A DNA stretch of 64,000 nucleotides, taken from Armatimonadota bacterium (GTDB lineage: Bacteria > Armatimonadota > Fimbriimonadia > Fimbriimonadales > ATM1). Where the stretch lies: contig QEUM01000005.1 of NCBI GenBank assembly GCA_003577165.1, positions 1 through 64,000 on the forward strand, given 5' to 3'. The notes beneath the pieces are model-generated. The model made no database searches. It was not told the origin of the DNA and saw only the letters and a program-made list of their open reading frames with translations. Every line of letters begins with the position of its first letter. The stretch's first letter is position 1. Positions 11,292-12,830 of the stretch are shown in pieces. The translations under genes and the position numbers were made by a program.

Positions 11292-12614
11292 ATGAAACAA
11301 GCAATCCGCTTGGTGGCGGTGTTGGCCGCTGCCGCATGTGCGCTTGCGTCCCTCGCACAGGGCAAGGACCCGGCTGAAGTCCTCAAGGACATCGCAGCGC
11401 TCCGCACCAAGCGCGCATCCGAGGCGCGCGAGGCGAACAAGCCGTTGGACGTCAACGGACTGAACGCGGAAATCAAAGCGATGGCGCTCGAGGCGACCGC
11501 CGGAGTCGACCCTGCCAAAGTGGACGCTGCGCAAGCATACGACTGGGCGCAGGTGTTCTCCTATGCCGGCAAGCATAAGGAGACCTGCGACCTCTGCGCG
11601 AAGTTCGTCGCATCCAATCCTGCGCCGGAACGCAAGTTCTCGGCCCAGATGTTGATGCTGACTTCCTGCAACGAACTCGGCGAAGGGGAGATGATCTTGA
11701 TGGCTCTGCCCGACGTCGTGCTTCCGAATTGGTCTGCCAGCCAGCAACTGTTGCGCGCGACTCTGAGCCAATACGCGGGGACGATCCTTGTGGACAAGGG
11801 TCTCGACGCGGCACTGAAGGCTATCGACGACGTTGCGAGCCGGGTCCAGTACGAGTCGCCCGAGGACTACGCGAACCGAGTTTTCGCGGCGACGAAGGCG
11901 AGGAATCCGAAGAATCCGGACGGCACTCCACAGACCGATGAGCAGATTCGAGCCACGCTCCTGACTCAGGGAAAGGGCATCAACGATTCGCTGAAGTTCT
12001 CAGTCGTATCGAAGAAGGCTTCTCTCCTATCGGAGGGGGGGCGCAAGAGCACAGCCGTCGCGCTTCTCGATAGTTACATCGCGGAAGTCGGCGCGGACAG
12101 CGCTTACGGCAAGCGTGCTTCGACCACCCGAACGCAGCTGACAATCGTAGGTGCAGTAGCGCCGGAACTCGTTTACGATCGCAAGATCGGAGAGTTCCCG
12201 GGCCTCCAGGCCTGGCGAGGCAAAGTCGTTATCGTTGATTTCACCGCACACTGGTGAGGGTTCTGTCAAATGTCCGTTCCGGACATGAAGCAGCTGTACG
12301 CTGACTTACACGACAAAGGACTCGAAATCGTAGCGGTAACCTCGTATTACGGCTTTTACAAAGACCAGCGCGACATCAAGCCCGATCAGGAATTCGAATT
12401 CATGAAGGGCTTCGTCAAGGAGAAGGAAGAGCCGTGGCCGTTCGTCTTTGGTGATCGCACCACGAATCACTCTGCCTACGGCGTGAGCGGAATCCCGCAC
12501 TGGGCCGTTCTCGACCGAGACGGAAAGGTGGCTTTCATCAACATCGGATACTCTGCGGACCTCTTCAAGGCGTTCCGCAAGAAGGTGGAGGACCTGGTAA
12601 ACAAGAAGCCATAG
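11292..12614 (+). CDS. TlpA-like thioredoxin-fold selenoprotein (Sec at UGA 12255-12257)
   Basis: Read through the in-frame UGA this is a 440-aa exported protein. Residues 1-23 are a signal peptide (MKQAIRLVAVLAAAACALAS). Residues of about 24-300 are a helical, TPR-like region, and about 300-440 a thioredoxin fold. The motif reads VDFTAHW-UGA-GFCQ: the UGA (residue 322) occupies the first Cys of WCxxC and Cys325 is retained. Downstream come the helix VPDMKQLYADL, the strand LEIVAVTSYYG, and the cis-Pro loop GVSGIPHWAVLDRDGK (Pro402). The start has GAGGTG upstream. A strong terminator follows 20 bp after the stop. A SECIS-like hairpin lies just after the UGA. UGA is a normal stop elsewhere in the window. 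The alternative is a nonsense mutation with re-initiation at ATG 12270 (GAGGG lies 9 nt before it), but that product would lack the first strands and one active-site residue. No sel genes are in this window. Confidence 0.82.
12255..12293 (+). promoter_or_regulatory. candidate bacterial SECIS element
   Basis: After the UGA (12255-12257) comes an 18-nt spacer to the apical loop. The upper stem is 12270-12275 (ATGTCC) with 12281-12286 (GGACAT), perfectly paired. The loop GTTCC begins with G, as in the bacterial SECIS consensus where a G is required in the first two loop positions. A symmetric 4x4 internal loop and a 3-bp lower stem (12263-12265 with 12291-12293) extend it. G12276 and C12280 could also pair, leaving a TTC loop. 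Spacing falls in the accepted window of about 16-37 nt. No folding energy was computed. Confidence 0.7.
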
Positions 12615-12633
12615 ATCCGACGCTGGCCGAACG

Positions 12634-12674
12634 GAAATCGGGGCATTCCATTGCGGTGCCCCGATTTCTTTTTT
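12634..12674 (+). terminator. strong intrinsic terminator
   Basis: A perfect 12-bp stem (12634-12645 with 12657-12668), an 11-nt loop, and then TTTTTT (12669-12674). It begins 20 bp after the TAA at 12612-12614. Its position shows that transcription is meant to continue through the UGA at 12255 to the downstream stop. Confidence 0.9.
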
Positions 12675-12830
12675 GTGTGCGGGCGAATTCCGCGGGGAAC
12701 AAAGTGCGGCAAAACTCCAAATATTGGGGAGGCCGTGAGCGAACCCGTGGGAAGATACGTCCGTCAGAAATCGCAGGAATCGTAAAGGCCTTTCGATCCC
12801 GGATATTCATATGCGCACAGGAGGATATCC

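Follow-up and report, generated by a model that had tools for sequence, protein, structure and literature searches.

Thioredoxin-fold selenoproteins with Sec in a UxxC motif have been described before. Redoxin and TlpA-type (cd02966) members were reported from marine surveys and appear in the current inventory, in which Table 1 has entries for a 'Redoxin family protein' and a 'Thiol-disulfide isomerase-like protein cd02966 UxxC' (PMC13188914). The GOS survey names a 'Prx-like 3, pfam08534, UxxC' (PMC2398784). The bSECIS model in the inventory has a stem of 4-16 bp, a loop of 3-9 nt, a G in the first two loop positions and a distance of 16-37 nt between the UGA and the loop, with a minimum free energy threshold of at most -7.5 kcal/mol (PMC13188914). 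No paper discussing selenoproteins of Armatimonadota was found in the open-access literature searched. Here, we describe a predicted selenoprotein gene from this phylum, located at 11292-12614 on the forward strand of the window (the whole 64-kb stretch of DNA analyzed).

The frame starting from ATG 11292 contains a single in-frame TGA, at 12255-12257 (+ strand), within DFTAHW-U-GFCQMSVPDMKQLY. It is followed by 118 sense codons and a TAG stop codon at 12612-12614, so that read-through would give a 440-residue product in which Sec is residue 322 (W-U-G-F-C). The start, the TGA and the continuation are as the first-pass annotation gave them. Its final stop, TAA at 12612-12614, reads TAG in the sequence, and its 119 codons after the UGA are reached by counting the stop. 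The intrinsic terminator that it placed downstream of the second stop is present at 12633-12675 (+ strand), where a stem of 15 pairs (12633-12669) is followed by a T run, 18 bp beyond the TAG stop. The other 13 large ORFs of the window that end in TGA were inspected by eye; no redox-like motif lies at their TGA codons, and their extensions are mostly short or run into another reading.

The N-terminus, MKQAIRLVAVLAAAACALASLAQ (11292-11360, + strand), resembles a signal peptide as read by eye. Helix 2-20 has low pLDDT and is followed by a break, and the N-terminal segments of the orthologues end in similar SFAQ/ALLAQ sequences. This signal-peptide-like N-terminus suggests that the protein is exported. 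Residues ~27-285 (11370-12146, + strand) form a helical, TPR-like domain. No Pfam family matches the N-terminal half by itself, and TPR_14 matches are found in 6 of 18 family members. Residues ~286-440 (12147-12611, + strand) form a TlpA/ResA-like thioredoxin-fold domain (Redoxin PF08534). When the TGA is read through, residues 286-421 match the Redoxin, AhpC-TSA and Thioredoxin_8 families of Pfam above their cut-offs; the Redoxin score is 51.2 bits against a gathering threshold of 26.6, and the redox motif, U322-G-F-C325, starts with Sec. The AlphaFold model calculated with 18 family members is confident (pLDDT 92.1, pTM 0.81). In the model, the helices of residues 27-285 precede the thioredoxin fold, the U-x-x-C motif begins helix 323-342, and the cis-Pro loop GIP is at 400-402. 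Among solved structures, ResA, DsbE and the C-terminal domain of DipZ are the nearest. The model and the N-terminus read by eye support the earlier proposal that an exported oxidoreductase is fused to a helical domain.

The assembly containing the window (2.75 Mb in 23 contigs, 97.5% complete) encodes the whole Sec-decoding trait. A search for selA, selB, selC and selD, which the first-pass annotation had proposed, found all four. The tRNA-Sec gene is at C17:31693-31783 (76.4 bits; SeC with anticodon tca, i.e. UCA, in ARAGORN), and selB is at C1:96692-98527 (376 bits), in the contig to which the window belongs. The scores of selA and selD are 491 and 355 bits, respectively, and selD has its own in-frame TGA.

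Other TGA-containing frames were observed in the same genome. Two AhpC-TSA/Redoxin proteins have the in-frame TGA at the redox position: C10:53396-53764 (L161), with NFWFYN-U-GGC, and C16:47636-47992 (L163), with EFWGYW-U-GPC and a long N-terminal extension before it. C22:392969-393454 (L164) encodes a deiodinase-like protein (T4_deiodinase in Pfam, 97 bits); it too is of Redoxin type, has its in-frame TGA at a redox position, SYT-U-PPF, and is likely to be a further selenoprotein. Together with SelD and the gene at 11292-12614, these C10, C16 and C22 genes bring the candidate selenoproteins of the genome to at least five. Another Armatimonadota family has two TGA-containing TlpA-like frames on 3.7 kb (L139, G071:C111:14300-18000), with the motifs FFAHW-U-GPC and FFSHW-U-FEC; they are apparently duplicated selenoproteins.

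Orthologues were collected from 291 Armatimonadota genomes by an alignment-based search and from named genomes by a further scan, and 47 rows were used for the tree; the named relatives are nearly all metagenome-assembled. A single-protein query against the genome contigs gave no match; the alignment-based query did find relatives. The family belongs to Armatimonadota, chiefly Fimbriimonadales, with a few relatives in Verrucomicrobiia and one in Acidobacteria. The codon at the UGA position is TGC or TGT in 42 of the 47 rows and TGA in the remaining five, and no other codon occurs. These counts agree with the earlier claim that UGA replaces the first redox Cys, and they answer the alignment check proposed with it. 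In addition to the window, TGA is found in G128 (58% identical), G101 (47%), G005 (36%) and G043 (30%), which fall in three GTDB families. Both selB and tRNA-Sec are present in each of the five TGA genomes, and both are absent from the Cys-form genomes G073, G092, G093 and G094. The observation is far beyond chance, because the Pfam matches span the UGA, four other genomes share the TGA, and every remaining orthologue examined has Cys at that codon.

A putative bSECIS apical stem-loop, AUGUCC-GUUCC-GGACAU, is located at 12270-12286 (+ strand). Its 6-bp stem, its loop GUUCC and its loop start 18 nt after the UGA are within the published geometry (PMC13188914). In each of the five TGA genes, a hairpin of this kind lies 16-18 nt after the UGA, with a G among the first two loop nucleotides (-6.4 to -11.9 kcal/mol). 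The G128 and G101 hairpins are AGGUCC-GUUCC-GGACCU, in which the stem shows a compensatory change from U-A to G-C. The stems of G005 (AUCCGGG-AGUU-CCCGGAU) and G043 (AGCGGGG-GUA-CCCCGCU) differ in sequence and lie at nearly the same place, the hairpin shifting by a few nucleotides between lineages. No corresponding hairpin better than -4.0 kcal/mol is found in the Cys orthologues. The 17-nt hairpin of the window alone has an energy of -6.4 kcal/mol, short of the published threshold of -7.5, and the 42 nt after the UGA have -12.9; the hairpins of the other four Sec genes have -8.6 to -11.9. The energy of the real hairpin is matched by 7% of synonymous shuffles for the window, whose hairpin is the weakest, and by 1.9%, 1.8%, 1.0% and 0% for the other four. 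Since the window hairpin is weak by both measures, the SECIS case is based on the five-gene set.

Constraint at the nucleotide level extends over the 24 codons at 12258-12329 (+ strand), in which synonymous change among the Sec orthologues is nearly absent. Among the window, G128 and G101, 90-96% of codons are identical at +1 to +24 in pairwise comparison, and the remainder of each pair has 46-61% (Fisher p 0.0009, 2e-5 and 2e-5); dS is 0.07-0.16 in the 24 codons compared with 0.9-2.0 elsewhere. No comparable excess of synonymous identity after the equivalent codon is found in pairs of Cys orthologues. Downstream of the UGA, dN is smaller than dS, which indicates that the extension is translated. 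In the folds of the four W-U-G-F-C genes (the window's gene, G000, with G128, G101 and G005), GGGUUCU just after the UGA pairs with AGGACUC/AGGGCUC ~60 nt on. This pairing would join the ends of the 24-codon stretch in an extended SECIS region and would account for the reach of the synonymous constraint. We put the long-range lower stem forward as a suggestion, because the test of folding energy over the whole 75-nt region is a weak one (z from -0.3 to -3.1 across the Sec genes, with G005 and G043 not significant).

Three other readings of the locus were weighed. If the UGA were a true stop, or a premature one in a decaying or mis-sequenced gene, the product would be only the 321-residue helical protein. 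A standard ORF call does end at 12257, and UGA is a normal stop in the window, terminating 14 of its 38 large non-overlapping ORFs. Contrarily, the TGA shared at this codon by four other genomes from three GTDB families, with Cys in every other orthologue, is hard to reconcile with a stop, as are dN < dS after the UGA, the near-zero dS immediately downstream of it, the Sec machinery of the genome, and a terminator that sits beyond the TAG. We regard this reading as very improbable; in particular, the recurrence of TGA in four genomes and the RNA-level constraint downstream make a sequencing error very unlikely. The same UGA stops bear on a changed genetic code, in which UGA would be read as Trp or Gly and which would also explain why the open frame continues. 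Because 14 of the 38 ORFs end in UGA and the tRNA-Trp of the genome has the anticodon CCA, UGA is not generally reassigned; the first-pass annotation had judged a changed code unlikely. The tRNA-Sec is the sole UCA tRNA among eight tRNA loci checked, and the orthologues carry neither Trp nor Gly at the position. The probability left for a changed code is close to nil.

The downstream part might also be made separately, since an ATG at 12270 could start a 114-residue product. Such a product would be devoid of both active-site residues and of the first strand of the fold. Besides, GGTGAGGGTTCTGTCAA contains no Shine-Dalgarno-like sequence, and the Met is replaced by Arg in G128, G101 and G005. 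Separate translation therefore deserves hardly any weight. The pseudogene, the separate downstream ORF and the changed code were all rejected. Judging from the sequences, UGA 12255-12257 very probably directs Sec insertion into a TlpA-like redox protein. The computed support comprises the Sec machinery, the equivalence of UGA and Cys, the RNA hairpin with nucleotide-level constraint, and the fold.

With Sec insertion as the preferred reading, a mechanism can be proposed. SelB and Sec-tRNA(UCA) would bind the bSECIS stem-loop, which lies inside the reading frame a short way past the UGA, and the ribosome would then read the UGA as Sec. The product would be a 440-residue exported selenoprotein, in which a helical (TPR-like) domain precedes a ResA/TlpA-like thioredoxin fold. 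In the redox pair Sec322-Gly-Phe-Cys325, Sec322 would attack in place of the usual first Cys and Cys325 would resolve. Disulfides or other oxidized thiols may be reduced (or exchanged) outside the cytoplasm, and we lean, with some reserve, towards a reductase acting there. A DsbD/CcdA-type membrane reductase may recharge the pair, and a DsbD_TM protein in the window's genome is a candidate reductant. The helical domain may dock the substrate or a partner. The Pfam-scanned neighbors (metallo-beta-lactamase-fold, small lipoprotein-like, sortilin/BNR-repeat and unassigned proteins) give no functional clue. The flanks are not conserved in the relatives, where no conserved gene neighborhood was found, and the gene is not placed in a cytochrome c maturation operon, no such neighbors being seen at the locus.

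The distribution of Sec and Cys on the tree should also be considered. On a motif-masked tree, Sec requires at least three changes, also when well-supported branches alone are counted. The proteins of G128 and G101 (family f2) cluster with that of the window although they come from another family, a grouping that suggests transfer between families. The residue two positions after Sec is Phe in every Sec orthologue (U-[GT]-F-C), while nearly all Cys orthologues have C-G-P-C. The Cys orthologues with Phe are those of G041 and G042 (C-G-F-C; L167 and L168) and G034 (C-I-F-C; L169), which are sisters of the Sec form of G043 and whose genomes gave no selB match at the threshold applied. Their C-[GI]-F-C motif may be the footprint of a Sec residue that disappeared along with its machinery. 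The joint reading, that Cys and Sec switched at least three times in this Armatimonadota family, each Sec form being accompanied by Phe, and that C-[GI]-F-C in the f12 Cys sisters, which have no selB match, is the footprint left by a former Sec codon once the machinery was gone, is tentative, and we think it somewhat less probable than not. If true, the protein sequence itself would record the gain and loss of Sec, with the extended SECIS region of ~75 nt partly dictating the peptide. Such a footprint is worth testing, because the replacement of Sec by Cys has been judged rare and mostly limited to formate dehydrogenase and SelD (PMC1794560).

With this gene, a little-studied phylum gains a well-supported predicted selenoprotein and a genome that uses Sec and has at least four more redox genes containing TGA. 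Standard gene calling would cut the protein to a domain without a Pfam match, and the enzyme would be lost. Within the family, one oxidoreductase, probably exported, occurs naturally in closely related Sec and Cys forms, which is useful for questions on the benefit of Sec and on Sec/Cys exchange.

Compared with known systems, ResA, TlpA and DsbE are the closest in fold. The best profile relatives are 3gl3 and 1st9 (E about 1e-21), and the fold matches 4nmu, 3gl3 and 2h1b (TM about 0.8 to the target). The protein differs from them in having Sec for the first Cys and an N-terminal helical domain, and it scores far below the NCBIfam cut-offs for ResA (49.8 against 170) and DsbE (28.4 against 123) and also below that for TlpA (29.7 against 230). 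NF041054 (WAxxUGC_long) is likewise a Sec-containing ResA-like family. It matches weakly at residues 280-350, with 32.5 bits against a cut-off of 300, and has the motif UGC, whereas the target has AHWUGFC (UxxC) and is not a member. The Redoxin UxxC selenoproteins share with the target the PF08534 family and Sec at UxxC in a thioredoxin fold. Going by the survey descriptions, the target is set apart from them by the 260-residue helical domain that comes first, by a distinct Armatimonadota group and by the motif U-G/T-F-C; the fused helical domain, Armatimonadota and U-[GT]-F-C were not found in the accessible descriptions of PMC13188914 and PMC2398784. The two-part helical and TlpA-like architecture is common with Cys in Fimbriimonadales, and UxxC Redoxin/TlpA-like families are already catalogued (PMC13188914), so that the first-pass annotation, although correct on the identity of the protein, overstated its novelty. 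For the same reason, the gene at 11292-12614 is an addition to the known UxxC selenoprotein class rather than a new kind of system, with the helical fusion, the repeated Sec/Cys exchange and the Phe that accompanies Sec as its unusual details.
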